Assembly: GCF_003634555.1 (NCBI RefSeq)
Contig: NZ_RBKS01000001.1
Coordinates: 930,001-994,000 of the forward strand
DNA: 64,000 nt
DNA from: Frondihabitans australicus
GTDB taxonomy: Bacteria; Actinomycetota; Actinomycetes; Actinomycetales; Microbacteriaceae
Direction of reading: 5' to 3'
Shown: positions 14,720-61,230 of the stretch, piece after piece
How positions within the stretch are numbered: the first letter of the stretch is position 1
Layout: every line of letters begins with the position of its first letter
Position numbers and translations under genes: made by a program
Notes under the pieces: generated by a model
The model's database searches: none
Seen by the model: the letters and a program-made list of their open reading frames with translations, nothing else
What the model was told of the DNA's origin: nothing

Positions 14720-14750
14720 AGGCCCGTCGCACTTCGGTGCGGCGGGCCTT
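14720..14750 (+). terminator. Hairpin terminator after csbD-like gene
   Basis: AGGCCCGTCGCAC and GTGCGGCGGGCCT form a 13-bp stem (one G-U pair) closed by a TTCG tetraloop, 15 bases after the stop codon. It can also serve the convergent crotonase gene. Confidence 0.85.
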
Positions 14751-14771
14751 CGCGCATCCTGCGGCCGTGCC

Positions 14772-15596: not shown

Positions 15597-15609
15597 GAGG
15601 CGATCGTAG

Positions 15610-16446: not shown

Positions 16447-16467
16447 CCCGTCAGCATGGCATACGGG

Positions 16468-17226: not shown

Positions 17227-17307
17227 CGGTGCTTTCCTTTCGTGATGCCCCGCGTGGGGCGTGAGTGTTCACCTGTCGTCCGAACTGCGCGTCGTGCCGG
17301 TCTCCGG

Positions 17308-19389: not shown

Positions 19390-19518
19390 TGTTCTCTCCT
19401 GGATCGTCGCGACACGCCGCGGTGGCGCGGAAAAACGGTTGCCTGGCGCCCACGCTATCCGCGAAACGACGCCGATGGCCGGGAGTTTAGCCAGGAGTCT
19501 CGTGCGCTGTATGTCTTA

Positions 19519-44832: not shown

Positions 44833-45357
44833 TCAGCCGACGAAGTCGATGCCCTCGTGCTCGAGGAGCCACCTCTTCGTCGGCACACCCCGGCCGGGTG
44901 TGTAGCCGGTGAGCCGGGCTCCGGCGCCCAGAACGCGGTGGCAGGGGACCAGGAGCGCGACGGGATTCGCCCTGATCGCCCCGCCCACCGCTCGGGCGCC
45001 CAGGGGTCTGCCTGTTCTCTCGGCGAGTTCGCCGTAACTCGTGGCTGTTCCCCATGGGACGTCGGTGAGGGCGTTCCAGACCTCCTCCTGGAAGTCGGTG
45101 CCGTAGCTGTCGAGCGGAAGGGTGAAGCCGAAGCGGCGCCGGGCGAAGTAGTCGTCGAGCTGGCGGCGGGCCTCGTCGAGGAGCGGTGTCGGCTGCCACG
45201 ACAGCTCGTCGGCGCAGGGCGGGAGGGCCGGGTTCTCGTCGGCCTCGATGTCGAGACGCGAGATCGCGGGCCCTCGGGCGTGGATGGTGAGGACGCCGAT
45301 GGGCGAGTCGTGTCGGGCGACGCTGACGGCGGTACGGGGATGGGTGGCTGTGGTCAT
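44833..45357 (-). CDS. ogt: Methylated-DNA--protein-cysteine methyltransferase (Ogt type)
   Basis: A 174-residue suicide repair protein that removes alkyl groups from O6-alkylguanine. The DNA-binding helix-turn-helix region (TSYGELAERTGRPLGARAVG) and the active-site VPCHRVLG with the acceptor Cys are present; the end WLLEHEGIDF is typical. ATG 45357 is preferred; the frame extends to 45504, but the added part is Pro-rich and unlike the family. Confidence 0.93.
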   Translation of the reverse strand: MTTATHPRTAVSVARHDSPIGVLTIHARGPAISRLDIEADENPALPPCADELSWQPTPLLDEARRQLDDYFARRRFGFTLPLDSYGTDFQEEVWNALTDVPWGTATSYGELAERTGRPLGARAVGGAIRANPVALLVPCHRVLGAGARLTGYTPGRGVPTKRWLLEHEGIDFVG

Positions 45358-45545
45358 GGCGTCACGGTAGGGGTCAGGCGTCCTCGGCGGGTCGGCCGGC
45401 GGCCCACTCTGTGGACAGCTGCTCGGCCGCACCGGATGTGGGGGACCGGTGCTGGGCGTGACGGGGACGCGCTGGGTCGGCGCGAGTTGGTACGGTGTGA
45501 GCACCGTGAGCCGCTCGGCTCGCTCTGTCTGTGCCGGGAGGGTCC

Positions 45546-45935
45546 ATGACGACCTCGTCGCCCGCGCGATTCCACAGCGTCAGGATCGGCGCAGCGACGT
45601 TCGCGCTCGACGCCCCGCTGATCGTCGGTCGGCGCCCCTCGCCGCCGCGGATCGTGCGGGGTGCGGTGCCGCGACTCGCGGCCGTGCCCTCCGCTCGCGG
45701 CGAGGTCTCCGCGACGCACGTCGACATCCGGCAGGAGGGGACGGCGGTGGTGGTGACGGACATGCGGTCGACGAACGGCACCCGCGTCGTCATTCCGGGC
45801 CGACTTCCCGTGGCTTTACGGCAGGGCGAGTCGATCGTGGTGCTCGCGGGCACGATAGTAGACATAGGTGACGGGAACCATCTCGAGATCCTGCCCCTGA
45901 ACCGCCTCGTCCCCCAGGAAGAATCAGCCCTGTGA
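45546..45935 (+). CDS. Small FHA-domain protein
   Basis: A 129-residue protein that is essentially one FHA phosphothreonine-binding domain: APLIVGRRPSPPRI (the Gly-Arg of the loop), SATHVDIRQEG (Ser-x-x-His) and STNGTRVV (Asn-Gly-Thr). The ATG at 45546 sits after GGGAGGG. The gene overlaps the PP2C start by four bases (GTGA) and heads the kinase/surface-protein cluster, so it probably reads phosphorylation by the membrane kinase. A palindrome (GAGCCG-CT-CGGCTC, 45508-45521) lies before it. Confidence 0.88.
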   Translation: MTTSSPARFHSVRIGAATFALDAPLIVGRRPSPPRIVRGAVPRLAAVPSARGEVSATHVDIRQEGTAVVVTDMRSTNGTRVVIPGRLPVALRQGESIVVLAGTIVDIGDGNHLEILPLNRLVPQEESAL

Positions 45936-46762
45936 CCCAGATCGGCCGCCCCACGACCGCACACACCATCCGCCTCGGCGACGCGTCGAGCGTCGTCCTC
46001 GACTGGGCGGGCGCCACCGACGTGGGGCTCCGACGCGCTCACAACGAGGACAGCTTCGTCGCGCGCTCACCGCTCTTCGTCGTCGCCGACGGCATGGGCG
46101 GTCACAGCGCCGGCGACGTGGCCTCCGACGCCGTGGTCCGGCGGCTCGACGAATCGGCCACCGGCGATTTCTTCGACACCGAGTCGCTCGAGGAGGCTCT
46201 GCGGCTCGCCACGGACGACATCGAGGTGGCCGCCGTCGGCACCGAACTGGGCGTCGGCACCACCGTCACCGGCGCGATCCTCACGCGCGAGGGCGACTCC
46301 GCGTACTTCACGATCTTCAACGTCGGCGACTCGCGCGTCTACATGCTCGACTCCGGCCTGCTGAGCCAGGTCACCGTCGACCACTCGGTCGTCCAGGAGA
46401 TGGTCGCGGCCGGCATGCTCCACCCCGACGACGCCGAGAACCACCCGGACAGCAATGTCATCACCAAGGCGATCGGGTTCGGCGCCGAGCCGAGCCCGGA
46501 CTACTGGCGGGTTCCTGCGCGAGCCGGGCTGCGGCTCCTGATCTGCTCGGACGGTCTGACGAAAGAGCTGCCGACGGCAGCGATCGCCGCGGGCCTCGCC
46601 GAGCACGCGGACACCGAGGAGGCCGCCACGGCTCTGGTCGCGGCGGCGGTCGCGGCGGGCGGTCGGGACAACGTCACCGCGGTCGTCGTGGACGTGCGCA
46701 AGGTGGTCGAGAAGGCCGACCTGGAGGCCACTCTGCCGACCGATCGGCTGCCCCGACCCTGA
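45932..46762 (+). CDS. PP2C-family Ser/Thr protein phosphatase
   Basis: A 276-residue PPM phosphatase. Metal-site motifs are intact: RRAHNEDSF, FVVADGMGGHSAGD, NVGDSRVY, LLICSDGLTKEL and GGRDNVTAVVV. It is soluble and should reverse the action of the kinase encoded next. GTG 45932 overlaps the FHA gene. It is a PstP-like single domain without the membrane segment found in mycobacterial PstP. Confidence 0.94.
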   Translation: MTQIGRPTTAHTIRLGDASSVVLDWAGATDVGLRRAHNEDSFVARSPLFVVADGMGGHSAGDVASDAVVRRLDESATGDFFDTESLEEALRLATDDIEVAAVGTELGVGTTVTGAILTREGDSAYFTIFNVGDSRVYMLDSGLLSQVTVDHSVVQEMVAAGMLHPDDAENHPDSNVITKAIGFGAEPSPDYWRVPARAGLRLLICSDGLTKELPTAAIAAGLAEHADTEEAATALVAAAVAAGGRDNVTAVVVDVRKVVEKADLEATLPTDRLPRP

Positions 46763-46767
46763 CCCAC

Positions 46768-46785
46768 GCCCCCCGAAGTGGGGGC
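46768..46785 (+). terminator. Small hairpin after PP2C gene
   Basis: GCCCCC and GGGGGC form a 6-bp stem with loop CGAAGT six bases after the phosphatase stop. It may only attenuate transcription into the kinase gene. Confidence 0.5.
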
Positions 46786-46792
46786 CAGGCAG

Positions 46793-46801
46793 TTGTCCAC
46801 A
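46793..46801. promoter_or_regulatory. DnaA-box-like nonamer
   Basis: TTGTCCACA matches the DnaA-box consensus of high-GC actinobacteria exactly. It stands between the PP2C and kinase genes, 41 bases before the kinase -10 element. A single box may bind DnaA or occur by chance. Confidence 0.45.
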
Positions 46802-46841
46802 GATGCCCCCCAGGCCCCCCGGTGGGGCGGGGGTGTCCGCA

Positions 46842-46847
46842 TACAAT
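46842..46847 (+). promoter_or_regulatory. -10 element upstream of the kinase gene
   Basis: TACAAT, one of the best -10 hexamers in the window, stands 66 bases before the kinase ATG. Its -35 region is GC-rich and weak. It suggests that the kinase-to-FHA part of the cluster can be transcribed separately. Confidence 0.6.
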
Positions 46848-46913
46848 GCTGAGGATCGGCAATCCGACGCGGGCGCCTCGGGCGTCCTCCACCCAAGCAT
46901 CCGAGGGGGCGAC

Positions 46914-48350
46914 ATGGCACGGCGCCTGCCGTCGCAGCCCCCTGTGCTGCCTGGCTTCTCGCACATGCACGTGCTGGGTTCCGGCGGCTTCGCCGACGTC
47001 TTCCTCTACGAGCAGAACATGCCGCGCCGGCAGGTCGCGGTCAAGGTCATGCTGAGCGAGGTCGTCAACGACCAGGTCCGGCAGATGTTCCAGGCCGAGG
47101 CCAACCTCATGGCGCAGCTCAGCGGTCACCCCTCGATCCTCACCGTGTACCAGGCGAGCGTGTCGGCCGACGGGCGGCCCTACCTCGTGATGGAGCTGTG
47201 CTCCTCGTCGCTCAGCGAGCGCTACCGTCGCGAGCGGATCCCCGTGGCCGACGTCATGCGCATCGCGGTGAAGATCGGCAGCGCCATCGAGACCGCGCAC
47301 CGTCAGGGCGTGCTCCACCGCGACATCAAGCCGTCGAACATCCTCATGACGGCCTACGGCCACCCCGTGCTCTCCGACTTCGGCATCGCGGCCTCCCTCG
47401 GCGAGAGCGAGCCGACCGAGGTGGTCGGCCTGTCGATCCCGTGGTCCGCTCCCGAGGTCCTCCGCGACGACACGTCCGGCACCGTCGCCAGCGAGGTGTG
47501 GTCGCTCGGGGCGACGGTGTATTCGCTCCTGGCCGGCCGCAGCCCCTTCGAGGTCATGGGCGGTGCGAACACGTCGGCCGACCTCATGCAGCGGATCGAG
47601 AAGGGCCGGATCCAGTCCATCGGCCGCACCGACGTCCCGCCGAGTCTCGAGGCGGCGCTCCAGCGGTCCATGTCGCACCGGCCGGAGCAGCGGCAGGCCA
47701 GCGTCCTGGAGCTCGTACGCGACTTCCAGCAGGTCGAGTCCGAGCTCGGTGTCGCGCAGACGCCCATCGAGGTCGCGGTCGACGACTGGGCGCTGGCCAC
47801 CGTCGCGGACCTCGAGGATCGCACGCGGGTGCGCGGATCAGAGGGCGCTCCGGTCGCCTCCGGCGCCCGTCGACGCCGGCGCCGCTCGCTGGAGGGCTCC
47901 GCCGCATCCGGCGGGCTCGACGCGGGTGTCCGCAACAGCAAGGCGATCCCGCGCAGCACGGGCACGCGTCCGGAGGCGAAGAGCCCGAAACGGTCGCAGT
48001 ACCTCGCCTGGGCGGTGATCGCCGCCGCGTTCGTCGCTCTCGTGCTCGTCGGCATCTCGTCGCTCTTCCTGATCCGGTCGTCGTCCTCGGACATCCCGCA
48101 GGTCTCGAACATCCACGCGTCGGTCACCGGTTCGTCGGTCCGGTTCAGCTGGACTGATCCAGGGCTCCGGTCGGGCGACACCTATGTCGTCACCTCGGGC
48201 ACCGACAACAAGAGCACGCAGACGTCCTCGACCTTCCTCGCACCCATCACCGACGGCCAGCAGGTCTGCATCACCGTGACCGTCAACCGCGCCGGGAAGA
48301 ACGGTCCCGCCAGCGCCGAGAAGTGCGCGGCGGCGAAGGGCTCTTCGTGA
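46914..48350 (+). CDS. Membrane Ser/Thr protein kinase with extracytoplasmic FN3-like domain
   Basis: A 478-residue eukaryote-type kinase. The kinase domain (about 16-280) has the Gly loop GSGGFADVF, catalytic Lys44, HRDIKPSN (Asp137) and DFGIA, so it should be active. A basic linker with RRRRRR follows, then one membrane helix (363-387) and an outside domain of about 90 residues with an FN3-like strand pattern (SNIHASVTGSSVRFSWTDPG). ATG after GAGGGGG. Its stop overlaps the giant protein start (GTGA), so kinase and surface protein are made together. Confidence 0.93.
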   Translation: MARRLPSQPPVLPGFSHMHVLGSGGFADVFLYEQNMPRRQVAVKVMLSEVVNDQVRQMFQAEANLMAQLSGHPSILTVYQASVSADGRPYLVMELCSSSLSERYRRERIPVADVMRIAVKIGSAIETAHRQGVLHRDIKPSNILMTAYGHPVLSDFGIAASLGESEPTEVVGLSIPWSAPEVLRDDTSGTVASEVWSLGATVYSLLAGRSPFEVMGGANTSADLMQRIEKGRIQSIGRTDVPPSLEAALQRSMSHRPEQRQASVLELVRDFQQVESELGVAQTPIEVAVDDWALATVADLEDRTRVRGSEGAPVASGARRRRRRSLEGSAASGGLDAGVRNSKAIPRSTGTRPEAKSPKRSQYLAWAVIAAAFVALVLVGISSLFLIRSSSSDIPQVSNIHASVTGSSVRFSWTDPGLRSGDTYVVTSGTDNKSTQTSSTFLAPITDGQQVCITVTVNRAGKNGPASAEKCAAAKGSS

Positions 48351-51300
48351 GTCGACTGCTCCGCTGGCTCCTGGCGCACCGCTCGGCGGCCGCCACGGGT
48401 CTTCTCGCCGTCGTCATCGCGGCGGTGTGCGCCACGATCGGGCTGACGAGCTCCGGCTACCAGGCGCAGCGCGTGAGTCTCGACGACGGCACCGTCTGGG
48501 TCGCGAACGACTCGCTCACGGCGATCGGCCGAGCCAACCCCGCCGTGCTCCAGCTCAATTCGGCGGCGCGGAGCACGGGCAGCGACCTCGCGGTCGTCCA
48601 GGACGCCTCGCACGTCCTCCTCCTCGACCAGAGCGACGCCACGGTCGGGGCCGTGAACACCAGCACCGCCTCGGTGTCGCAGACGGTGCCGCTGCCGCCG
48701 AACAGCCCCGACGTCCTGCTCTCCGGCGACACCGTCGTGATCGTGTCGGGCAAGACGGGCGAGTTCTGGTCGACACCGGTCTCGTCGCTCGACGCGTTCG
48801 ATGCGACGTCGCAGGCGGACCTCAGCCTGGGCTCCAACGTCGTCACGGGGATGACGCCCTCGGGGACCCTCGTGGCGTACTCGCCCGACAGCTCCGAGAT
48901 CTCGCGGGTCGACGACGTCACGACGTTCGGCGTCTCGTCGACGACGCGGGTCACGAGCATGAAGAAGTCCGATTCCTTCCAGGTGGCGTCGATCGGCAGC
49001 CACTGGGCCGTGCTCGACACGACTCGGGACGTCCTGGTGGTCGACGGCCACCGGGTCGACCTCTCCGGTGACGTCACCGGCCGCGTCGCGCTGCAGGAGT
49101 CCGCCGACTCCGGCAGCACGGTGCGCGTCGCGTCGGCGTCGGGGCTCCTCGACGTCTCGTTCTCGGGCTCCGTGTCGACCCGGGTCTCGGGTCGGGGCGG
49201 CGATCCCGCGCGTCCGGTGACCGTCGGGGGCTGCACGTACGCCGCCTGGGCGGACGGCGCCGGCTGGAACGACTGCTCCTCGTCGGGGCGCCTCCAGAAG
49301 CTCGCCTCCATGCCCGCTTCGGCGTCGCTCCAGTTCCAGGAGAACGGCGGCCGGGTCGTCCTCAACGACACGGCAGGCGGCTCCAGCTGGGCCGTCCAGA
49401 GGTCCGGTCAGCTCATCGACAACTGGAGCGACCTGATCACGAACGACAAGGAGCAGCAGAAGAACCCGATCAAGGACGACAGCGACCAGCAGAAGCTCGA
49501 GGTCCAGGAGAAACCGCCCGTCGCCGTCGACGACTCGTTCGGCGCGCGGCCCGGCAGGGCGACCGTCCTGCCGGTCCTCCTGAACGACTACGACCCGAAC
49601 GGCGACCCGCTCGTCATCACCGCCGTGACTCCGGTGTCGGCCTCGGTCGGCAAGGTCGAGATCATCGCCAGCGCTCAGCAGCTCCAGCTGACCCTCGCGG
49701 CCAACGCCTCCGGCGTCGTGACGTTCGACTACACGATCACAGACGGCCGGGGCGGCAGCGACAGTGCGCGCGTCACCGTGACGATCCGGCGTCCGGGCGA
49801 GAACTCCGCGCCCGAGCAGGTCCGCGCCACGAAGGCCGTGGTCGCGTCCTCCGGCCGGGTCACCGTCGACACTCTCGGCGACTGGGTCGATCCCGACGGG
49901 GACCCGTTCTACCTCACCGGCGCCACCGGGGCATCGGGCGGCACCGTGACGTTCAAGCCCACCGGCGAGGTGGTCTACCAGGACTCCGGCAAGGGGCCCT
50001 CCACGCAGGAGATCCTCCTCACGGTCTCCGACGGCACGGCGGTCGGAAGAGGCACGCTCACGATTACCGTCGACGCCGCCGGCCAGGTGCCCCTCACCGC
50101 GGAGTCGTTCTCGGTGCAGGCGTACTCGGGCGAGGTCACCACGGTGAGTCCGCTCCAGTACGCCCAGGGCGGCACGGGCACGATCAAGCTGAACAGCGTG
50201 CCGGCGAAGACGGGGGCGACGATCACGCCCAGCTACTCGGCGGGCACGTTCACCTTCGTCAGCACCGTGGTCGGCACCCACAACCTCGAATACACCGTGA
50301 CCGACGGCGACAAGACGGCCACGGGCACCGTGCGCGTCGACGTGCAGGCTCCGCCGCAGCCGAACACCCCGCCGATCACCACTCCGAAGACCGTGTTCGT
50401 CCAGAGCCTCAGCACTCAGACCGTCGACATCACGGCGTCCGACTCCGACCCGGCCGGAAACGTGCTCATGGTGACGGCGTCGAGCGCCCTGCCCGCGTCG
50501 TCCGGGGTGCAGGTGCAGATCCTGGAGCAGAGATACCTGCGCATCACTCTGACCGCGCCACTGGACCGGGGGCCGGTGTCGTTCACCTACACGGTGACGA
50601 ACGGGCTGGCGTCGGCTCAGGGGTCGGTGACAGTGGTCCAGATCCCGCGACCGACGACCCTGCAGCCTCCCATCGCGACGAACGACCAGGCGACCGCGCG
50701 TGTCGGCGAGACGATCGACATCGACGTCCTCGCGAACGACGAGCAGCCCGACGGCGAGGCGATCACTCTCGAGCCGAAGCTCGTGAAGAACGTCTCGTCG
50801 GGCGGGGGCCTGCTGTTCGTCTCGGGGGACCAGCTCCGCTATCTCGCCCCGAAGAGTCCGGGCAACTTCACCGCCGAGTACGCCATCGAGGGCGCCGACG
50901 GGCAGAGGGCGACCGCGCAGGTGAGCATCGCGGTGCGAGAGGCCGACGCCGCCACGAACAACCCTCCGGTGCCCCAGGCGCTGACCGCGCGTGTCGTGGC
51001 CGGTCAGACCGTCCGGATCCAGGTGCCGCTCGGCGACATCGATCCCGACGGCGACTCCGTGCAGCTTCTCGGCGTCGACTCGAACCCGCAGAAGGGCAAC
51101 GTCTCGTCGGTCGGCTCGAACTACATCGACTATCAGGCGGGCACCTACTCGGCGGGCACGGACTCCTTCACGTACACGGTGATCGACAGTCTCGGCGCCC
51201 GAGCGACCGGGACGATCCGCGTCGGCATCTCGCCCAAGGCACAGGACGCCCGCAACCCGATCGCCGTCGCCGACGCGGTCACGATGCGACCGGGCGGAAG

Positions 51301-54193
51301 CATCCAGGTGCAGGTGCTGGCGAACGACTCCGATCCCGACGGCGGCAGCCTGCACGTGGTGGCCGTGAAGCCCAACGACAAGGCCGTGAAGGCGACCATC
51401 GAGGCCGGAGGCGTGGTGCGGGTCACCCCGCCCGACCGGGCCGGCACGTACGGCCTCGTGTACACCGTCGCGAACGACCTCGGCGGCGAGTCGTCGAACT
51501 TCATCACGGTCAAGGTCGATCCGAAAGCCGCACTCAACTACCCCGTCGCTCAGGACAGCGATCTGACGCTGAACAACATCCTGAACCGCAAGACGATCGA
51601 CGTGAACGTCCTCGCGAACGTCTTCTTCGCCGACGGGAACGTGTCGACCCTAGGCCTCGGGGTCCTCCCCGGGTACGGCAAGACGGCTCAGGTCACTGCG
51701 AACCACCGGATCCGGGTGACGATCACCGACAAGAGTCAGATCATCCCGTTCTACGTCTCGCACCCCGGCGACCCCTCGATCCGGGCCTACGCGTTCATCC
51801 GCGTGCCAGGCTTCGACGACGCGCTGCCGCAGGTCAACGAGGCCGCCGCCCCGCTGACGGTCGTCAGCGAGAAGACCCTGACGATCGACCTCAACAAGTA
51901 CGTCATCTCGACGAGCCCGAGCGGCGTCCGACTGACCGACACGTCCACGGTGCGGGCCACGCACTCCGACGGCAGCGATCTCGTCGTGAACTCGACGACC
52001 CTGCGCTTCACCTCCGCGGCCGCGTTCTTCGGACAGGCGTCGATCTCGTTCCAGGTCACCGACGGATCATCGGCGACCGACCCCTCCGGTCACACGGCGA
52101 CGCTCGTGCTGCCCATCACCGTGTCCGCGCGTGCCAATCAGCCACCCGTGTTCGACGGCGCGACCCTCGACCTCGAGCCCGGCGACTCACGCACCCTCGA
52201 CCTCACGAAGCTCACGACCTACAACTATCCGAAGGACGTCGGGGAGCTTCGCTACGCGGCCACGACGAGCGACGTGCCCGGCTTCACGTTCTCGATCTCG
52301 GGCCAGCAGCTGACGATCCGGGCCGACGCCGATGCGGCCAAGGGAACGAGCTCCCGGCTCGGGATGACGGTCCGAGACTCGGTGTCCCAGGGCCAGGCGG
52401 GCACGATCAGTCTGACCGTCGTCGGCTCGACGCGCCCGCTGGCGATCGCGGCGGCCGACAGCGCGGTGACGAAGCGCGGCTCGACGACGGTGATCAACGT
52501 GCTCGCGAACGACCAGGCGACCAACCCGTTCCCGGGCTCGCCGCTCAAGGTGATCGCGATCCGCGGTCTCGGCGGCGCGTCTCTGCCCGCGGGGGTCTCC
52601 GTCACGCCGAGCGGTGACGACTCGCGGCTGACCGTTCACGTCTCGGCCGACGCGAAGCCGCTCGACACGCACCTCCAGTACGAGGTGGCCGACGTCACGA
52701 ACGATCCCGACCGCTACGTCTGGGGCGACGTGACCATCTCGGTCGAGGACGTCCCCGACGCGCCCCCGGCGCCCATCCGATCCGGCACGTTCGTCGGCGG
52801 CCAGCTGACCCTCTCGTACTCGGCTCCGCGGGCCAACAACTCGCCCATCACCGACTACCGTCTGACGGGCTCGTCGACGGCCGGGAGCTACACGAAAGAC
52901 TGCGGCATCTCGACGGTCTGCACGCTGACCAACCTGAATCCCGCCACGCCCTACACGTTCACCGTCGCTGCAGTGAACGCGATCGGAGCCTCCGCCGAGA
53001 GCCCCGCGTCGGCGGCGTACAGCGCCGACTACGTGCCGGCGAGCCCCACCGGGGTCTCCGTCACGCCGTCCTCGTCGACGCCCGATGCGTTGAACGTGAG
53101 CTGGAACACGGTGCCCACGCCGACGAACGGCAGCAAGGTCACCGGGTACGTGGTCGAGATCGCAGGAGCCGGTGCTCCCGGCACACAGACCGTGCCGGCG
53201 GGCACCACCTCGACCACGATCGCGGGCCTCCAGTCCGGGGCGCAGTACAGCGTGCAGGTGTACGCGACGAACTCCGCGCAGGTCTCGAGCACGGCGGACT
53301 GGGCGCGGAGCCCCGTGTCGACCGGGGTGGCAGTGGGGGTGCCGTCGACCGTGACCGTGACGGCGACCCTCCTGACGGACGGCACCGGTGACGTCAAGGT
53401 GTCGCACTCTGCGAGCGATCCTGCGGGCGCAGCCGGGGTCACGTACACGGTCGCGCGGGCGAACGGCGCGGACGCGGCAGCGCAGGCCTGCTCGCCGTCC
53501 TCGAAGCCGGGTGCGATCTCGACGAGCAACGGCGTCGACACCACGGCTCAGGACGGCCAGCAGTACACGTACTTCGTCTACTCCGACAACGGTCTCTTCT
53601 GCTCGACGTCGAAGTCGAACAGCGTGCAGAGCCTCCAGGCTCCCGGGCAGGCCACGGGCACGGTGCAGCTCGCGGCGAACGGCACCAGCGGCTACTTCGA
53701 CGTGCAGGTGAGCGGTCTCTCCGTCGCGTCGGGCACGGCGGTCGTGTACCAGGTGTCGGGCGACGGCGGGTCGACCTGGGCCACCGTGAATCCGAACGAC
53801 TTCATCACGAGCGTCAACGCCGACGGGACCTCGATCTACGGCACGTCGCAGAGCTTCTGGTTCCGCGGCTGCCGCGACAGCGCCGGCGCCATCTGCGGCG
53901 CGAAGTCCGATCCGGTGGCAGCGACGCCGATCGCCACCCGTGCATCGGTCGCGCAGTGCACGCCCGGTCAGCCGCTGGTGGTCAACGATCCGGTCAACGG
54001 CGGCGGGATCACGCCGTCGAGCTACCTGGTCCGGTTCCAGGACGCACTCGGTCTCTGGTCGAGCGGCCCTGTCGGCGGGGGTGCGTACACCACGTCTAGT
54101 ACCGTTCCAGACGATGCGGTCAACGTGCAGGTCACCGCGACCGTCCAGGGCAACACCGATCCGAATCCTCCGATCGTGGCGTGCGGCAACTGA
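48347..54193 (+). CDS. Giant membrane-anchored protein with Ig-like and FN3-like repeats
   Basis: A 1948-residue protein. One N-terminal membrane helix (about 14-33) with positive residues before it places the rest outside. Residues 40-380 are beta-rich, possibly propeller-like. From about 386 to 1467 come some eleven tandem Ig/cadherin-like units of 95-105 residues, several with the motif VLANDxDPDG. From about 1468 come FN3-like domains (VPDAPPAPIRSG, YVPASPTGVSVTP) and a Cys-containing tail. No LPXTG or C-terminal helix is present. It likely acts as a rod-like envelope scaffold or adhesin. GTG 48347 overlaps the kinase stop; 36 bases separate it from the MoxR gene. Confidence 0.9.
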   Translation: MSRLLRWLLAHRSAAATGLLAVVIAAVCATIGLTSSGYQAQRVSLDDGTVWVANDSLTAIGRANPAVLQLNSAARSTGSDLAVVQDASHVLLLDQSDATVGAVNTSTASVSQTVPLPPNSPDVLLSGDTVVIVSGKTGEFWSTPVSSLDAFDATSQADLSLGSNVVTGMTPSGTLVAYSPDSSEISRVDDVTTFGVSSTTRVTSMKKSDSFQVASIGSHWAVLDTTRDVLVVDGHRVDLSGDVTGRVALQESADSGSTVRVASASGLLDVSFSGSVSTRVSGRGGDPARPVTVGGCTYAAWADGAGWNDCSSSGRLQKLASMPASASLQFQENGGRVVLNDTAGGSSWAVQRSGQLIDNWSDLITNDKEQQKNPIKDDSDQQKLEVQEKPPVAVDDSFGARPGRATVLPVLLNDYDPNGDPLVITAVTPVSASVGKVEIIASAQQLQLTLAANASGVVTFDYTITDGRGGSDSARVTVTIRRPGENSAPEQVRATKAVVASSGRVTVDTLGDWVDPDGDPFYLTGATGASGGTVTFKPTGEVVYQDSGKGPSTQEILLTVSDGTAVGRGTLTITVDAAGQVPLTAESFSVQAYSGEVTTVSPLQYAQGGTGTIKLNSVPAKTGATITPSYSAGTFTFVSTVVGTHNLEYTVTDGDKTATGTVRVDVQAPPQPNTPPITTPKTVFVQSLSTQTVDITASDSDPAGNVLMVTASSALPASSGVQVQILEQRYLRITLTAPLDRGPVSFTYTVTNGLASAQGSVTVVQIPRPTTLQPPIATNDQATARVGETIDIDVLANDEQPDGEAITLEPKLVKNVSSGGGLLFVSGDQLRYLAPKSPGNFTAEYAIEGADGQRATAQVSIAVREADAATNNPPVPQALTARVVAGQTVRIQVPLGDIDPDGDSVQLLGVDSNPQKGNVSSVGSNYIDYQAGTYSAGTDSFTYTVIDSLGARATGTIRVGISPKAQDARNPIAVADAVTMRPGGSIQVQVLANDSDPDGGSLHVVAVKPNDKAVKATIEAGGVVRVTPPDRAGTYGLVYTVANDLGGESSNFITVKVDPKAALNYPVAQDSDLTLNNILNRKTIDVNVLANVFFADGNVSTLGLGVLPGYGKTAQVTANHRIRVTITDKSQIIPFYVSHPGDPSIRAYAFIRVPGFDDALPQVNEAAAPLTVVSEKTLTIDLNKYVISTSPSGVRLTDTSTVRATHSDGSDLVVNSTTLRFTSAAAFFGQASISFQVTDGSSATDPSGHTATLVLPITVSARANQPPVFDGATLDLEPGDSRTLDLTKLTTYNYPKDVGELRYAATTSDVPGFTFSISGQQLTIRADADAAKGTSSRLGMTVRDSVSQGQAGTISLTVVGSTRPLAIAAADSAVTKRGSTTVINVLANDQATNPFPGSPLKVIAIRGLGGASLPAGVSVTPSGDDSRLTVHVSADAKPLDTHLQYEVADVTNDPDRYVWGDVTISVEDVPDAPPAPIRSGTFVGGQLTLSYSAPRANNSPITDYRLTGSSTAGSYTKDCGISTVCTLTNLNPATPYTFTVAAVNAIGASAESPASAAYSADYVPASPTGVSVTPSSSTPDALNVSWNTVPTPTNGSKVTGYVVEIAGAGAPGTQTVPAGTTSTTIAGLQSGAQYSVQVYATNSAQVSSTADWARSPVSTGVAVGVPSTVTVTATLLTDGTGDVKVSHSASDPAGAAGVTYTVARANGADAAAQACSPSSKPGAISTSNGVDTTAQDGQQYTYFVYSDNGLFCSTSKSNSVQSLQAPGQATGTVQLAANGTSGYFDVQVSGLSVASGTAVVYQVSGDGGSTWATVNPNDFITSVNADGTSIYGTSQSFWFRGCRDSAGAICGAKSDPVAATPIATRASVAQCTPGQPLVVNDPVNGGGITPSSYLVRFQDALGLWSSGPVGGGAYTTSSTVPDDAVNVQVTATVQGNTDPNPPIVACGN

Positions 54194-54229
54194 GCCGTCC
54201 GGCATCCCACCGAAAGTGACACCGAGAGC

Positions 54230-55201
54230 ATGAGCATGACGCCCGAGCAGGCCACCTGGTTCGCCGACATCTTCGCGCGCCTCGTGGCCAACGTCGACAA
54301 GGTCCTCCTGGGCAAGTCGTTCGTGATCAAGCTCTCGTTCTCGGCGCTTCTCAGCGAGGGGCACCTGCTTCTCGAGGACTTCCCGGGCACCGGCAAGACG
54401 AGCCTCGCCAGGGCGATCGCCCAGACGGTGCAGGGCGCTTCCTCACGCATCCAGTTCACGCCCGACCTCCTTCCCGGCGACATCACCGGTGTGAGCATCT
54501 ACGACCAGAAGTCCGGCGACTTCGAGTTCCACGCCGGCCCGGTGTTCGCGAACATCGTGCTCGCCGACGAGATCAACCGGGCCTCGCCGAAGACCCAGTC
54601 GGCGCTGCTCGAGGTCATGGAGGAGTCCCGAGTCACGGTCGACGGCGTGACGCACTCCGTCGACGCGCCGTTCATGGTCATCGCGACGCAGAACCCGATC
54701 GAGCAGGCCGGCACGTACCGCCTGCCGGAGGCCCAGCTCGATCGCTTCATCATGAAGGCCTCCATCGGCTATCCCGACCACGCCGCGACGCTCCGGATCC
54801 TCGAGGGCTCGGCGACGCGGGTGCACGAGGGCTCACTGTCGCCCGTGGTGGAGGCCGCCGTGATCGTCGAGATGGCTCGGCTGGCCCGCACCGTCCACGT
54901 CGACCCGACCGTCGCCGACTACGTCGCCCGGCTCGTCGACGGCACGCGATCCGCCCCGGAGGTCCGCCTCGGCGTGAGCGTGCGAGGTGCGTTGGCGCTC
55001 GTCCGCGTCGCGAAGACCTACGCGGCATCCACGGGGCGTCACTACGTCACCCCCGACGACATCAAGCTCCTCGCGGAGCCGGTGCTCGCCCACCGGCTCG
55101 TGCTCGACCCCGAGGCCGAGTTCGACGGCGTCACGCCGTCCAGCGTCATCAGCCAGCTGCTCATCGAGATCGCGCCGCCCGCCGAGCGGGTGAGCGCGTG
55201 A
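54230..55201 (+). CDS. MoxR-family AAA+ ATPase
   Basis: A 323-residue AAA+ protein. Walker A is FPGTGKTSLA (residues 51-60), Walker B and its partner read VLADEINRASPKTQSALLEV, and sensor 1 lies in MVIATQNPIEQAGTYRLPEA. MoxR ATPases act as chaperones for vWA/DUF58 partners, and the next gene is such a partner. It is cytoplasmic. ATG 54230 is in a short gap after the giant protein. Confidence 0.95.
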   Translation: MSMTPEQATWFADIFARLVANVDKVLLGKSFVIKLSFSALLSEGHLLLEDFPGTGKTSLARAIAQTVQGASSRIQFTPDLLPGDITGVSIYDQKSGDFEFHAGPVFANIVLADEINRASPKTQSALLEVMEESRVTVDGVTHSVDAPFMVIATQNPIEQAGTYRLPEAQLDRFIMKASIGYPDHAATLRILEGSATRVHEGSLSPVVEAAVIVEMARLARTVHVDPTVADYVARLVDGTRSAPEVRLGVSVRGALALVRVAKTYAASTGRHYVTPDDIKLLAEPVLAHRLVLDPEAEFDGVTPSSVISQLLIEIAPPAERVSA

Positions 55202-55226
55202 CCCGAGCCCGTCGCGGTCCGACGGC

Positions 55227-56714
55227 ATGAGCCTCGACCGACCCCCTGTGGCGCCGGACACCCGGCCGCCCGGGCAGTCGCGCCCCGGGGCGGCGGCGCG
55301 GCGGGGGCAGACACGGCCACCGGGCGGGGTTCGCCCGGCTCCTGCGCGCTCGACCGCGTCGGTTCGGGAGCCGCGGGCCGACACGCTTTCGAGCACGCAG
55401 GGCCTCACCAACGCGCGCACGCGCATCGTCGGCAACCGGACCGGCTTCGGCGCCGACCTCGTCATCGTCCTCGTGCGGGTCTGGCGCGCCGTCGCGGCCT
55501 GGTGCGGTCGAGTGGCGGCGGTCGCGTCGGGAATCGTCACGCCGGTGGGCTGGTCGATGCTCGTGATCGCGCCGGCCTCGCTGATCGCCGGGTACCGACT
55601 CGGCTGGCTCGAACTCGTCGCGGTCGGCTACGCGGCCGTGGTCCTGCTCTGCCTCGCGGCCCTGTACGCGATCGGGCGCAACGCCTTCACCGTGTCGCTG
55701 ACGCTCCCGCATCAGCGCGTGGCGGTCGGCGACGACGCCGACGGCCGGGTGACGGTCGCGAACCCCACCAGGAGGCGCGTCCTCGGCGTCACGGTCGAGA
55801 TCCCCATCGGCCAGGGCCTCGCCGAGATCTCGCTGCCGGGCATGCGGGGCGGCGACTCGGTCGAGGAGTCGTTCGCCGTGCCCACGGGCCGTCGCGGCGT
55901 GATCCCGGTCGGCCCCGTGCGCACGGTGCGCGGCGATCCGATCGGTCTCGTGCGGCGCGAGCTCGAGTGGACCGGCGTCACCGAGCTGTACGTGCACCCG
56001 AAGACCATCGGCATCCAGTCCACGAGCACGGGCCTGATCCGCGACCTCGAGGGCACGGCGACGCGAGACCTCACCGCGAGCGACATCTCGTTCCACGCTC
56101 TCCGCGAGTACGTCCGCGGCGATGAACGACGACACATCCACTGGAAGTCCACCGCCCGTGCAGGCCAGTACATGGTGCGGCAGTTCGAGGAGACCCGCCG
56201 CAGCCACCTCGTCATCGCGCTGAGCCTCGCGAACGTCGACTTCGCCACGGAGGACGAGTTCGAACTGGCCGTGAGCGTCGCCGCGTCGCTCGGCATCCGT
56301 GCCATCCGCGACGCCCGCGAGGTCACGGTCGTGGTCTCCGAGCGGACGCCCGAGTTCGCCAAGCGCAAGACTCTGGCGGTCAAGCCGCTGAGCACGCTCA
56401 CCCGCGACCGCCTGCTGGACGAGCTCGCCGTGGTGACCTACTCGGAGTCGTCTCTCGCGATCACCGACGTCGCTCGCGTCACGGGCGAACAGGTGTCGGG
56501 CATCTCCGTGGCCTTCCTCGTCGTCGGCTCGACCACCCGCATCACGGATCTTCGCGCCGCGGCCGCCGCGTTCCCTCCCGGCGTCGAGGCCGTGGCCATC
56601 GTCTGCGACCCGGAGTCGATCCCCGGCATGCGCCGGGTGGCCGACCTCACGGTGCTCACCGTCGGCTACCTCGACGACCTCAAGCAGTCTTTGGCGAAGG
56701 TGGTGAGCGTGTGA
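55227..56714 (+). CDS. DUF58-family membrane protein
   Basis: A 495-residue protein with a long Pro/Arg-rich cytoplasmic start, two membrane helices (about 110-130 and 131-153) and a beta domain (VSLTLPHQRVAVGDDADGRV) before the DUF58 signature REYVRGDERRHIHWKSTARA (293-312). In the following vWA-like fold the usual DxSxS metal site appears as A331-L-S-L-A335, so a MIDAS metal is unlikely. DUF58 proteins work with MoxR and transglutaminase-like partners. It is close behind moxR, and its TGA overlaps the next GTG. Confidence 0.9.
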   Translation: MSLDRPPVAPDTRPPGQSRPGAAARRGQTRPPGGVRPAPARSTASVREPRADTLSSTQGLTNARTRIVGNRTGFGADLVIVLVRVWRAVAAWCGRVAAVASGIVTPVGWSMLVIAPASLIAGYRLGWLELVAVGYAAVVLLCLAALYAIGRNAFTVSLTLPHQRVAVGDDADGRVTVANPTRRRVLGVTVEIPIGQGLAEISLPGMRGGDSVEESFAVPTGRRGVIPVGPVRTVRGDPIGLVRRELEWTGVTELYVHPKTIGIQSTSTGLIRDLEGTATRDLTASDISFHALREYVRGDERRHIHWKSTARAGQYMVRQFEETRRSHLVIALSLANVDFATEDEFELAVSVAASLGIRAIRDAREVTVVVSERTPEFAKRKTLAVKPLSTLTRDRLLDELAVVTYSESSLAITDVARVTGEQVSGISVAFLVVGSTTRITDLRAAAAAFPPGVEAVAIVCDPESIPGMRRVADLTVLTVGYLDDLKQSLAKVVSV

Positions 56715-59101
56715 GCGCGCCCGCGGCAGGGATCGCGGCGAGGCGGACGGCCTCAGAGGCGCAGCCGCTCCGGCCCCGTCGGTCGCGCCCGCGTGTCTCA
56801 GCGGGCTTCGCCCTCGCGCAGGCACTCGCCTTCGCGGTGATCATGGCGATCGCGTGCGTGACGCTCTGGCCGGTGTACGTCAGCGTCGACTTCGTCGTGC
56901 TCGTCGTCGTCAGCCTGGTGGTGGGCGCGGCCATCGCTCTCGCGGGGACGTTCCTGCGGCTGTCGAGCTTCTGGCTCCTGCTGGCCACCGTCGTCGCCTT
57001 CGGGCTGTTCGGCGTCGCGGTCGCCGTACCGAGTCAGGCCCAGTACGGCGTGCTGCCCACGGTCGACGGGCTCCGGGAGCTCGTGCAGGGCGTCGCGCTC
57101 AGCTGGAAGCAGCTCGTCACGATCACGCTCCCGGTCGGCAGCTACCAGGCGCTCCTCGTGCCGGCGTTCGTGCTCGTCCTCCCGGGCACGGTGATCGGCC
57201 TCTCGACGGCCCTCCGGTCGTCGCGCGCCGAGCTCGCGCTGGTGCCGCCGGTCGTCGTCTTCGTGGCGGGGATCATCCTGGGGTCGAGTCAGGCGCTCCT
57301 GCCCATCGTCACCGGTCTCGCCCTGCTGGCGGCGTCGGTGCTCTGGCTCGTCTGGTGGCGCCTTCGCCGCCGACGGCTCGCCATCGACCGCCTGACCCGG
57401 TCAACACTGCGTGCGACGGGTGCGAGCGCAAACCCCCACCGCTCCGGCAATCGCGCCGTCGCGCGTCGCGCCCTCGGCGGCACGCTCGCGACCCTCGCCA
57501 TCGCGTCGCTCGTCGCGATCGCCGCCGCCACGGTCCTCGGCCCGGCGGGCGCCCGATGGGTGGCCCGCGACGCCGTGGTGAAGCCCTTCGACCCGCGCGA
57601 CTACGTGAGCCCGCTCAGCGGGTTCCGGGCGTATGAGCAGAAGCCGAGGGTCGACTCGCCGCAGTTGACCGTGACCGGTCTGTCCTCCGGAGACTTCGTC
57701 CGGATCGCCACTCTCGACACGTACGACGGCGTCGACTACTCGGTCGGGTCCGCTCGCGCCTCCGGAGACTCGGGCACGTTCACCCGCGTCCCGACGTCGT
57801 TCGACCAGTCCAAGGTGCGCGGCAGCCAGGCGTCGATCCAGGTCACGGTCGACGGGTACGACGGCGTGTGGCTGCCCACCGTCGGCAAGCTCGAGACGAT
57901 CGACTTCGCGGGCGGCAACGCCGCGAACCTCCGCGACGCGTTCTTCTACAACGACACCACCGGCACGGCGGCCGTCGTCGGCGGCGTCTCGAAGGGCGTG
58001 TCGTACTCGCTGACGTCGGTCGTCCCGCGACAGCCGTCGAAGGCCCAGCTCGAAGCGCTGACCCCAGGATCCGAGACCGTCCCGACGCCGACCGGTGTGC
58101 CCGCGACTCTGAAGTCCGCCCTCGCGGACTACGTCAACGGCGTCACCGGCCAGGGCGCCCGCCTGCAGGCGGCGCTCGACGGTCTGAAGAAGAACGGCTA
58201 CGTCAGCCACGGAGTGTCGAAGAACGAGCCGGTCAGCCGCTCCGGCCACGGCGAGGAACGCCTCAGCCAGCTCTTCACCGACCCTCTGATGATCGGCGAC
58301 GCCGAGCAGTACTCCGCATCCGCCGCACTCATGGCCGACCAGCTCGGATTCCCCGCGCGCGTCGTCCTCGGGTTCCAGGCGAAGCGCGGCGCCGACGGCT
58401 CGCCGGAATCCTTCGTCGGCTCCGACATCACGGCCGTGATCGAGGTCGACACGGCGCAGTACGGCTGGGTGACGCTGGATCCGAATCCCACGCCGCGGAA
58501 GATCCCCGACACGACGAAGACCGATCCCAACAAAGTCTCGCAGCCGCAGTCGGTGGTGCAGCCGCCGCCGCAGGAGGCCGATCCGCCGAACGACCAGACG
58601 CAGCCCCAGTCCAAGCAGGACACCCCGGCTCTTCCGCCGGCATGGATCGCGATCGTGCTGACGATCGTGAAGATCGGCGGCTGGGTCCTGCTGGTCGCCG
58701 GGATCATCATGGCCCCGTTCCTCGCGATCGTCGGGGTCAAGGCGTCGCGTCGCCGTCGGCGTCGACGGGCACGGGACCCCTCGCGGCGAATCACCGGCGG
58801 CTGGCAGGAGTTCCAGGATTCGGTGCTCGACCACGGCGTGACGCCGCCGCCGTCCGCCACCCGGACCGAAGTCGCCGGCGCCGTCGGCGGCAGCCGACCC
58901 GCCGTGCTGGCGCGCGTCGTCGACCGATCGGTGTTCGCGCCCGAGACCGTCGACGAGGGCGACGCCGACCGCGTGTGGAAGGCCGTCGGCGAGATGCGCA
59001 CGCAGCTCGACTCGGGCCTCACCCGCTGGCAGCGCTTCGTCGCCGCCGTCTCGACCCGATCGTTGCGCGGCTACCATGGCCGCAAGGCCTCCAACCGTTA
59101 G
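56711..59101 (+). CDS. TgpA-like multi-spanning protein with inactivated transglutaminase domain
   Basis: A 796-residue protein. About six N-terminal spans (32-225), another at about 255-278, a large outside domain, a Pro/Gln linker, one span (about 645-670) and a basic cytoplasmic tail match the TgpA/DUF3488-transglutaminase family. In the core domain the expected GxCEQY reads GDAEQYS (Ala531 for Cys) and the expected DAHAWVEV reads DITAVIEV (Thr574 for His); the Asp in WVTLDPNP (590) remains. Transglutaminase or protease chemistry is thus not expected, and a binding or scaffold role is likely. GTG 56711 overlaps the DUF58 stop. Confidence 0.88.
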   Translation: MSAPAAGIAARRTASEAQPLRPRRSRPRVSAGFALAQALAFAVIMAIACVTLWPVYVSVDFVVLVVVSLVVGAAIALAGTFLRLSSFWLLLATVVAFGLFGVAVAVPSQAQYGVLPTVDGLRELVQGVALSWKQLVTITLPVGSYQALLVPAFVLVLPGTVIGLSTALRSSRAELALVPPVVVFVAGIILGSSQALLPIVTGLALLAASVLWLVWWRLRRRRLAIDRLTRSTLRATGASANPHRSGNRAVARRALGGTLATLAIASLVAIAAATVLGPAGARWVARDAVVKPFDPRDYVSPLSGFRAYEQKPRVDSPQLTVTGLSSGDFVRIATLDTYDGVDYSVGSARASGDSGTFTRVPTSFDQSKVRGSQASIQVTVDGYDGVWLPTVGKLETIDFAGGNAANLRDAFFYNDTTGTAAVVGGVSKGVSYSLTSVVPRQPSKAQLEALTPGSETVPTPTGVPATLKSALADYVNGVTGQGARLQAALDGLKKNGYVSHGVSKNEPVSRSGHGEERLSQLFTDPLMIGDAEQYSASAALMADQLGFPARVVLGFQAKRGADGSPESFVGSDITAVIEVDTAQYGWVTLDPNPTPRKIPDTTKTDPNKVSQPQSVVQPPPQEADPPNDQTQPQSKQDTPALPPAWIAIVLTIVKIGGWVLLVAGIIMAPFLAIVGVKASRRRRRRRARDPSRRITGGWQEFQDSVLDHGVTPPPSATRTEVAGAVGGSRPAVLARVVDRSVFAPETVDEGDADRVWKAVGEMRTQLDSGLTRWQRFVAAVSTRSLRGYHGRKASNR

Positions 59102-59115
59102 GCAGTCTTCCGTTT

Positions 59116-61230
59116 ATGCGTTGTCCCACCTGTTCGAGCCCTCTGCCCGACGGAGCCATGTTCTGCGGCCAGTGCGGCCGGGCCATCACCGCTGCCGACG
59201 TCGCGGCCTATGCCGCGCGCCAGAAAGAGCAGGGCGCACCCTCGCTCGCGCCCGGCGAGATCCCGGCGTGGGAGCTCCGCGAGCCGCCGGCGGCTGTCGT
59301 GCCGCCGGGCACGCCGTGGTGGCTGGGCGATCGGGTGAGCGAGCCGGATTCCGGCGACGCACCCGAGCGGACTGAGGATGACGTCGAGGCGGGTTCGCCC
59401 GAGCGCGCTGAGCGTGCGGCCGCCGCAGAGCCCGTAGCTGCGGGCGAGACATCCGTGGTGGGCGGATCCGCGGAGATCGAATCGACCGAGGCGTCCGAAC
59501 CGAGTTCGTCGTCTGAACCGGCTGCGACATCCGAGCCGGACGAGGCTTCGAGACCTGATGAGGCGTCCGGACCGGACGACGCGTCCGAGCCGGACGGGAC
59601 GTCGAGACCGGCTCAGGCGTCCGAAGCGGCTGAGGCGACGGAGGGCGCCGGGGAGGCGGTGCCTGCCGAGGGCGGTCTGCGCGACGGGCTTCCTGATCCT
59701 GCGCCAGCCCCGCTGCGCCAGCCCGGGCCCGTGCTGCCCGGCAGCCCGCTGCCGTCGAGCGCGCCGTCCGCCCCGACGCGTGCATCGGGCCGCCCGGTGT
59801 CGGCTCCCCTGTGGACCGCATCCCTGACCCCGATCTCGCCCGAGCAGGCGGCGGCCGACGCAGCGGCGCGGGAAGCCGCCGGCGAGTCGACGGGCGAGGG
59901 GAGCCGTGCCGACGACGAGTCCGTTGCGGGGCGGAGCACGAGCGAGTCCGAGTCGTCGACGGCGCGACCGGCCGAGAGCGCGGGCCCTCAGGGCACGCCG
60001 GCGTCCGGCTCCGTCGACCCCGACGAACCCCGCCCGGGCGACACGAACGTGATCCAGCCGCTCGTCACGCCGGCCCGACCGGGCTCGGACGGTCGGCTGC
60101 GCTGCACCGTCTGCGGTGCGGCCCTCAGCGACGACGACATCTTCTGCGGCGAGTGCGGCACCGTGGTGCAGGCGGTCGCGCAGTCGTTCACCGGCCCCAT
60201 CACGCCGATCCTCACGCACCCGGTCGCGTCGGATGCCGCCGCGGAGCCCGAACCCGCTGCGGACGAACCACCGCTGGCCGAACGGCGAGCCCTCGAGCAG
60301 TCCGAGGCCGACGAGCACCTGAGCGACGGCGACGCTGACGGTGACCGAGGCGACACCTCGCTCGGGGACCACCAGGCGCGGAACCCGGAGACCCGGACCG
60401 ACACGGGCGGCGCGGCCGAGGCCCCCGCACCTCGGCCCGCACCCCTCGCCCCGACGCCCCTGCCGCCGTCGGGGAGCGTGCCGCCGCCGTTCGTGCCGGA
60501 CCCCGAGCCGGCTCCCAAGCAGCGCCGCCGCTTCTTCGGCCGACGTGCTGAGAAGGAGGCGCCGAAGCTGTGGGGCGACGCAGCAGTCGCCGACACGTCG
60601 TCACCGGTACCGCCCGCGCCTCCCGCCCCGCCGGTCGAGACGCAGCCCCTGGACGAAGTCGCGCAACCCGCTCCGCCTCCGGTGAGCGCACGGTCGGTGC
60701 CGGCCGTGCCCGAGACGGTCGAGGACTCGCCTGCTCCTGCGCCCCTCAAAGCCACGCCGGTCGACGACGCGCCCGAATCCGGCCCCGCGGTCATGGCCCC
60801 CGTGCCACCCGCTCCCGAGTCGCCGAGACCCGCTGCTCCGTGGGCGGTCGGTTCGCCGATCGACGACATCGAGCAGACCCGGATCGTCGCGCGACGCCCC
60901 CTCGGCGAGCCGTACACGCTGCAGTTCTCGACCGGCGAGAGCTTCACGGTGCAGGGCACCGGCCTCGTCGGGCGCGCGCCGACGCCGCAGCCGGGCGACA
61001 TGATCGATCTTCTCGTGCGGATCATCGACCCCGGCAAGTCCGTCTCGAAGACGCACCTCGAGTTCGGCCAGGACGACGGCCAGCTGTGGATCTCCGACCG
61101 CTGGTCGGGCAACGGCACCGTGCTCAGGCCACCGGCCGCGCCGGCGAAGCGCTGCGAGCCCGGCAAGCGCGTACGCGTTCCGCGCGGTTCGCGCATCGAC
61201 ATCGGCGAGCAGTTCTTCACCGTCAGCTGA
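59116..61230 (+). CDS. Double-zinc-ribbon FHA-domain protein
   Basis: A 704-residue protein starting at ATG 59116. A zinc ribbon (Cys3, 6, 17, 20) opens the protein. A second (Cys330, 333, 344, 347) lies after about 300 residues of Glu/Ser/Pro/Ala-rich disordered sequence with SEPDEAS-like units. Another Pro-rich linker leads to a C-terminal FHA domain (about 605-700) with LVGRAPTP, SVSKTHLEF and WSGNGTVLR. It is probably a cytoplasmic phospho-reader tied to the kinase. No membrane helix. It lies 14 bases after the TgpA-like gene and ends the cluster. Confidence 0.88.
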   Translation: MRCPTCSSPLPDGAMFCGQCGRAITAADVAAYAARQKEQGAPSLAPGEIPAWELREPPAAVVPPGTPWWLGDRVSEPDSGDAPERTEDDVEAGSPERAERAAAAEPVAAGETSVVGGSAEIESTEASEPSSSSEPAATSEPDEASRPDEASGPDDASEPDGTSRPAQASEAAEATEGAGEAVPAEGGLRDGLPDPAPAPLRQPGPVLPGSPLPSSAPSAPTRASGRPVSAPLWTASLTPISPEQAAADAAAREAAGESTGEGSRADDESVAGRSTSESESSTARPAESAGPQGTPASGSVDPDEPRPGDTNVIQPLVTPARPGSDGRLRCTVCGAALSDDDIFCGECGTVVQAVAQSFTGPITPILTHPVASDAAAEPEPAADEPPLAERRALEQSEADEHLSDGDADGDRGDTSLGDHQARNPETRTDTGGAAEAPAPRPAPLAPTPLPPSGSVPPPFVPDPEPAPKQRRRFFGRRAEKEAPKLWGDAAVADTSSPVPPAPPAPPVETQPLDEVAQPAPPPVSARSVPAVPETVEDSPAPAPLKATPVDDAPESGPAVMAPVPPAPESPRPAAPWAVGSPIDDIEQTRIVARRPLGEPYTLQFSTGESFTVQGTGLVGRAPTPQPGDMIDLLVRIIDPGKSVSKTHLEFGQDDGQLWISDRWSGNGTVLRPPAAPAKRCEPGKRVRVPRGSRIDIGEQFFTVS

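Follow-up and report, generated by a model that had tools for sequence, protein, structure and literature searches.

What would a bacterium do with a kinase, a phosphatase and two FHA readers that are encoded side by side with a giant surface protein and a MoxR-DUF58-TgpA set? This question is raised by eight consecutive genes on the + strand (45546-61230) of the window, a 64,000-nucleotide stretch of Frondihabitans australicus DNA (NCBI RefSeq assembly GCF_003634555.1, contig NZ_RBKS01000001.1, positions 930,001 to 994,000) taken from a genome of 4.04 Mb in a single contig. The genes overlap or are separated by no more than 40 bp. The original prediction, made from the sequence alone, had described them as eight co-directional genes, and all of these open reading frames (ORFs) are indeed present on one strand; its domain calls (two FHA, PP2C, kinase, Ig/FN3 giant, MoxR, DUF58 and TgpA) were confirmed by Pfam. 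The combination of phosphothreonine genes with giant, MoxR, DUF58 and TgpA, which the prediction had singled out, does consist of conserved neighbors, but it is not new: its core is the PFNA operon of Bifidobacterium, and it is widespread in Actinomycetes. The identity of the window cluster as a Microbacteriaceae member of the PFNA-type gene clusters is well supported.

Identity of the gene cluster

In the published accounts, as far as their text was available, the PFNA operon consists of pkb2-fn3-aaa-atp-duf58-tgm in one order and direction, joined in some species by prpC, a hypothetical gene and fha; in B. longum GT15 it is co-transcribed, and its FN3 protein has 1994 aa with fn3 domains at 1494-1671 (PMC8430577, PMC6803598, PMC10688814, PMC12607495). 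All five core genes recur in the window in this order and on one strand. Its giant is colinear with FN3 and almost of the same length: the window giant (1948 aa) and the FN3 protein of B. pseudolongum (1966 aa) share 32% identity over 1646 columns (E 9e-167), aligned from residue 19. The best fn3 stretches lie at 1486-1555 and 1485-1556. With its length of about 2000 aa, its N-terminal membrane segment and its pair of fn3 domains near 1490-1670, the giant shows the PFNA traits, and the kinase shows those of one membrane helix and a C-terminal ectodomain, which is FN3-like. PP2C and FHA genes, the accessory prpC and fha counterparts, are present as well, and the transglutaminase lacks the catalytic Cys in both clusters.

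The two clusters also differ. The window FHA and PP2C genes lie upstream of the kinase, whereas in B. longum prpC/fha are described downstream of tgm; behind its TgpA-like gene, the window has a zinc-ribbon/FHA gene; and the window FN3 region lacks the WSxxS motif, in a host that is not a bifidobacterium. The mycobacterial moxR1-DUF58-vWA operon is alike in that MoxR adjoins DUF58, and PMC12067865 remarks on its similarity to PFNA, but there a vWA gene follows DUF58, and the available text of that paper mentions no giant, transglutaminase (TG)-fold gene or kinase for it; the same text calls the function of DUF58 unclear.

Distribution and linkage in relatives

The range of PFNA has been published as Bifidobacterium only, in the text available. 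This restriction was not upheld, since the cluster was found in Microbacteriaceae, Cellulomonas, Actinomyces, Terrabacter, Micropruina and others. A query with the TgpA-like protein matched 48 of 60 genomes, the window's own included, and in an order-wide draw a match (E 1e-15 or better) was present in 109 of 198 genomes and 38 of 73 genera, which counts the protein match alone and not cluster linkage. Forty regions of about 20 kb, picked among the TgpA-like match places, were then fetched from 38 genomes. The giant was present in 39 of the 40; of these 39 giant loci, 35 also have the kinase and 29 have PP2C. Wherever all four core genes occur together (38 loci), they lie on one strand in the order giant, MoxR, DUF58, TgpA. 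Because the giant recurs in 39 of 40 loci and strand and order are kept in 38 of 38, the linkage of the cluster genes goes beyond chance, and the conserved linkage in relatives on which the original prediction had staked itself was borne out.

The same picture emerged when an alignment of kinase activation segments served as the second seed. Among the best 80 of at least 564 confirmed relatives in named genomes, the giant was found in 76 loci, MoxR in 70, DUF58 in 71, TgpA in 61 (many flanks end inside or before TgpA) and PP2C in 50; no giant match was found in L084, L124 (contig ends), L126 and L130. The records include 17 from Bifidobacterium, together with Actinomyces, Cellulomonas, Agrococcus, Cryobacterium, Herbiconiux, Knoellia, Terrabacter and Micropruina, and most of the non-bifidobacterial genera carrying the cluster we take to be environmental. 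Among the 59 kinase-seeded loci with all four core hits, five depart from the order: L111, where the giant stands downstream of TgpA, L103, whose frames are interrupted in the draft, and L080, L101 and L107, in which the TgpA match sits at the end of the flank. In a phylum-wide sample, 8 of 296 genomes matched a strict DNA pattern for the kinase motif, 5 of the 8 sampled from the window's order (its own genome included) and 3 of the 288 others; this count is a lower bound, as genome G053, with its cluster at L062, was missed. Of the three matches outside the order, L194 includes kinase, giant, MoxR and DUF58 plus the edge of TgpA; L195 and L196, which lack cluster genes, look like chance.

Several observations speak against a strict operon and against the mechanism proposed below. 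No TgpA-type match was found in 12 of the 60 genomes, six of which belong to the window's own family (five of those genomes are of 1.8 Mb or less), and within the fetched 20 kb, 4 of the 39 giant loci lack the kinase and 10 lack PP2C. In six Actinomyces loci (L092, L095, L096, L103, L109 and L122) the kinase is encoded on the other strand, facing the core, and therefore is not co-transcribed with it there. MoxR is absent from the Actinomyces gaoshouyii locus (L056, L096), where the giant is directly followed by DUF58, while it is present in five other Actinomyces loci. Finally, in L057, L058 and L066 the kinase stops shortly after the membrane helix and has no FN3 ectodomain. The opposite-strand kinases and those lacking the ectodomain weaken the link of kinase to core.

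A quick-method tree of 67 giants, in which long branches were flagged, tracks taxonomy: its 19 Bifidobacteriaceae rows form one clade, and the window giant is placed in Microbacteriaceae near Galbitalea, Glaciihabitans and Frigoribacterium. The simplest reading would be an old actinomycete cluster, mostly inherited vertically, with the bifidobacterial PFNA as one of its branches.

Variant loci were also seen. The genome of the window contains another, divergent PFNA-type set (L031, G000:C1:1120400-1140300) with FHA, kinase, giant, MoxR, DUF58, a Cys-less TgpA-like gene and a zinc-ribbon/FHA match, and no PP2C match; the same-genus genomes G001 and G004 each have a second TgpA-type place. Kinase, PP2C and FHA lie downstream of the core, in another order and still linked, in L039, L040, L052, L054 and L059. 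Knoellia remsis (L111) has a giant-type frame downstream of TgpA, and no giant was detected between kinase and MoxR in the Knoellia loci L126 and L130. Tandem giants are possible in L093, a Propionibacteriaceae metagenome-assembled genome (MAG) with a second giant-type open frame (11121-20167) after the first, and in L102, an Actinomycetes MAG with another such frame (3-4223) upstream of PP2C. In Bombiscardovia coagulans (L084) a PFNA-type kinase is the sole cluster gene within the 20 kb, and the genome has no TgpA-like match; possibly the operon was lost and the kinase left behind.

The TgpA-like protein has lost its catalytic Cys

The prediction of an inactivated transglutaminase held: of the catalytic triad, Cys is replaced by Ala and His by Thr in the window protein, and Asp is kept. 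The catalytic Cys is likewise absent from 40 of the 41 TgpA-like proteins read first (window included), the lone exception having no giant, from 30 of 30 proteins from named records and from 47 of 47 Bifidobacterium proteins (44 parsed by pattern; L225, L228 and L243 read by eye). These sets overlap, G056 being in the first and the Bifidobacterium set and at least B. olomucense in the named and the Bifidobacterium set, and the sets of 30 and 47 were counted irrespective of giant linkage; every giant-linked copy that was read has lost the Cys. By contrast, six Cys-bearing TgpA proteins from MoxR-DUF58-TgpA sets of the same order (L067, L189-L193) keep Cys and His, with Glu at the Asp position in all six. 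No giant stands beside these sets in the five cases whose upstream side is visible; L190 ends at a contig edge just upstream of MoxR.

Around the lost Cys, a G-x-x-E-Q signature together with an upstream G and R is invariant, and the neighboring residues are 100% invariant in 69 proteins, among which neither L067 nor the short protein of L049 is counted. On a FastTree tree with 75 rows, one change separates the Cys-less from the Cys-bearing forms, and the TgpA-like gene is present in all 39 giant loci among the fetched relatives. Because the signature is invariant around the lost Cys, we read the TgpA-like protein as repurposed, not decayed. Decay was rejected as the explanation of the lost Cys in view of the invariant neighbors, the retained gene and the single change on the tree; an active transglutaminase was also rejected as the identity of the window protein, in which Cys and His are gone though the TgpA/transglutaminase fold is present. 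The predicted loss of transglutaminase catalysis is well supported, and catalysis of the usual type is ruled out as far as sequence allows. The conserved former active site could offer a handle on the role of the DUF58/MoxR/TgpA sets.

These data bear on a covalent assembly line in which the transglutaminase would cross-link the giant to the wall. The TgpA fold and the reported in vitro transglutaminase activity of the P. aeruginosa TgpA ectodomain (PMC3507681, in the text available) speak for it, but with the Cys gone from each giant-linked copy read, and with no giant in the five visible Cys-bearing sets, we consider it very improbable. The window protein stands apart from the MoxR-DUF58-TgpA operons exemplified by P. 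aeruginosa TgpA (structures 6g49/6g4h), having the invariant G-x-x-E-Q in place of Cys and His. Two other proteins offer comparisons. Erythrocyte protein 4.2 has the TG core fold alone in common, with low Z, and serves as an analogy for the possible working of the domain, not as a sign of membership. HM2192 of strain HM13 is described as a membrane protein with an annotated inactive TG domain and seven membrane helices, and its disruption as increasing vesicle production (PMC12096838, available text); its host is Gram negative, and the likeness lies in the described domain make-up.

The kinase and the phosphothreonine genes

The kinase start is ambiguous, at 46803 (515 aa) or at Met-38 (46914, 478 aa), and the open frames of many relatives have about 480 aa. 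The membrane helix spans residues 406-424. The usual form of a kinase activation segment is G-T-x-x-Y; the window kinase carries the signature GLSIPWSAPE, and the relatives read share G-x-S-[IVP]-P-W, a motif present by construction in the kinase-seeded loci. The ectodomain is FN3-like (fibronectin, E 1.9e-6) and shows weak profile similarity to the FN3 region of the giant (probability 65%, E 6e-5). Published work, in the text available, describes the PFNA kinase ectodomain as variable. Most kinases of the relatives bear such an FN3-like ectodomain, and the same Trp and two Cys were found in all 23 aligned sequences, picked from 104 that were kept after kinases with fewer than 50 residues past the membrane helix were excluded.

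Whether these genes belong to the core functionally is disputed by an alternative in which the TG-fold protein, DUF58 and MoxR only help to secrete or fold the giant as a structural anchor, and kinase, PP2C and FHA are general regulators kept near for other reasons. It would account for the shifts of kinase, PP2C and FHA relative to the core between families, for their absence from some loci and for the opposite-strand kinases of Actinomyces, and MoxR proteins have been described as chaperones (PMC8430577). The same source, as far as available, reports that the operon's MoxR is phosphorylated by Pkb2 in B. longum, which argues against it, as do the recovery of the giant in 76 of the 80 best loci by the kinase segment alone and the FN3-like ectodomain on most of these kinases. 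We regard this alternative as unlikely.

The giant surface protein

Propeller, Ig rod and FN3 tail make up an architecture that, like the length of the giant, is nearly fixed across relatives; giants shorter than 1500 aa or split in drafts (e.g., L049 and L115) were left unjoined and omitted from the alignments, and 2 of the 100 collected giants (L059 and L106) are cut by locus ends. No Pfam propeller model matched the N terminus of the window giant, and one PQQ_2 match was found among 61 members; the beta-propeller was established by structure prediction. At the C terminus, FN3-like similarity extends beyond the two Pfam stretches in a profile search against PDB sequences. Absences from the fold-match lists were given no evidential weight.

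A MoxR next to a propeller protein recalls the MoxR-vWA-beta-propeller conflict (defense) systems, and Pfam bpMoxR matches the window MoxR above its gathering score (36.7 versus 27 bits, E 2.9e-9). The general AAA_3 model scores far higher on it (211 bits), however, and in the window the propeller forms part of the giant, where it is joined to an exported rod; the giant is inherited along taxonomy. We consider a defense role very improbable. Pfam detected no vWA family among the eight window proteins at E 0.01.

The cytokine motif and the host

In the literature, as far as available, the cluster is presented as a human-immunity sensor unique to bifidobacteria, with FN3 proposed for therapy; it is in fact common to many other actinobacteria. 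According to this account, the operon exists to bind host cytokines via FN3 and to signal through the kinase. Recombinant B. longum FN3 fragments are reported to bind TNF-alpha, and PFNA genes to rise with TNF-alpha (PMC8430577, PMC10688814, PMC12607495). A WSxxS-type motif is the published trait of the FN3 domains, with the second-domain motif reported absent in B. angulatum and B. bifidum. We found WSxxS in the FN3 region of all 19 Bifidobacteriaceae giants, which favors this account. Of the 82 non-bifidobacterial giants, the window giant being one, 24 have it too, eight of these as WSxWS; the window giant does not. In two bifidobacterial rows the motif sits on N-x-V-G-W-S, where other rows read N-x-x-G-x-S. 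Because it occurs in 24 of 82 others, is absent from the window and falls on this shared stretch, the motif is weak evidence of a cytokine-receptor origin.

The presence of the cluster in many genera whose members we take to be environmental, and a giant tree that tracks taxonomy, also speak against a host-immunity sensor, which we judge improbable; a host-only role is contradicted by the distribution. Cytokine binding could be a later bifidobacterial use. Since the cluster is found in non-bifidobacterial actinobacteria and the catalytic Cys is lost, its basic job is probably other than host dialogue, and non-bifidobacterial relatives open the ancestral function to study.

A proposed mechanism

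From conserved linkage and anatomy, we infer an envelope complex of giant, pseudo-transglutaminase, DUF58 and MoxR. The N-terminal helix would anchor the giant in the membrane, with the propeller beside the membrane and the Ig/FN3 rod reaching outward through the wall. The non-catalytic TgpA-like protein would use its TG-fold ectodomain as a binding module, a receptor or clamp for the giant or a wall component, and report to the cytosol; there, the complex would be remodeled by DUF58 and the MoxR ring. The kinase may sense the same complex via its FN3 ectodomain and phosphorylate MoxR and FHA partners, PP2C would reset this phosphorylation, and the circuit would thereby set the display or state of the complex. 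We give about an even chance to such an old actinobacterial envelope signaling and assembly unit, kinase/phosphatase-gated and MoxR-driven, with a non-catalytic TG-fold receptor or clamp. The surface-assembly machine switched by phosphorylation of the original prediction would be of this kind; its one experimental link in the literature consulted is the published MoxR phosphorylation by Pkb2 in B. longum, and ligand, signaling direction and role of the FHA partners are conjectural throughout. More tentatively, and with the odds somewhat against it, the cluster might be an ancestral actinobacterial machine in which the repurposed receptor, driven by MoxR and gated by kinase, phosphatase and FHA, holds or reads a giant rod of fixed span as a ruler or strain gauge across the wall, the bifidobacterial cytokine story being a late by-use.

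Gene layout and neighboring sequence

The coordinates are collected in Table 1. GTGA overlaps were predicted for FHA-PP2C, kinase-giant and DUF58-TgpA, and they are present at 45932, 48347 and 56711; the remaining gaps measure 14-40 bp. Control of stoichiometry through these overlaps, as proposed, is plausible.

Table 1. Features of the eight-gene cluster in the window
Feature	Coordinates	Strand	Evidence or remark
FHA-domain protein, 129 aa, first gene	45546..45935	+	ORF and Pfam FHA E 9.6e-5; GTGA overlap with PP2C
PP2C phosphatase, 276 aa (prpC counterpart)	45932..46762	+	Pfam PP2C E 1.1e-9
Membrane Ser/Thr kinase, 515 aa (Pkb2 counterpart)	46803..48350	+	Pfam Pkinase E 1.1e-42
Kinase ectodomain, one FN3-like domain; two Cys and Trp kept in relatives	48108..48347	+	
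Giant surface protein, 1948 aa (FN3 counterpart)	48347..54193	+	Pfam, 7 Big_9 and 2 fn3 stretches
N-terminal membrane helix of giant (residues 9-27)	48371..48427	+	
Beta-propeller of giant (residues ~43-364)	48473..49438	+	Eight-bladed type per best structural matches
Rod of giant, tandem bacterial Ig/cadherin-like domains (residues ~386-1470)	49502..52756	+	Pfam
C-terminal FN3 domains and tail of giant	52757..54190	+	Two Pfam fn3 stretches
MoxR AAA+ ATPase, 323 aa (aaa-atp counterpart)	54230..55201	+	Pfam AAA_3/MoxR E 5.7e-63
DUF58 protein, 495 aa, two hydrophobic segments	55227..56714	+	Pfam DUF58 E 1.1e-11
TgpA-like membrane protein, 796 aa, seven hydrophobic segments (tgm counterpart)	56711..59101	+	Pfam TgpA_N E 1.1e-16, Transglut_core E 2e-8
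Ectodomain of TgpA-like protein, TgpA/transglutaminase fold	57554..58558	+	
Former active-site motif GDAEQY, Cys position = Ala	58295..58312	+	
His position of former active site = Thr	58430-58432	+	
Two zinc ribbons and C-terminal FHA, 704 aa; start ATG 59116	59116..61230	+	Pfam

No terminator-like sites were found on the + strand between 45000 and 62000, which is merely consistent with co-transcription, and a promoter scan found nothing. Upstream of the eight-gene run, an O6-methylguanine methyltransferase gene (44836-45504, minus strand) is the divergent neighbor. Just 41 bp (45505-45545) separate its start from the first FHA gene, and therefore the promoters of both directions overlap or sit within genes.

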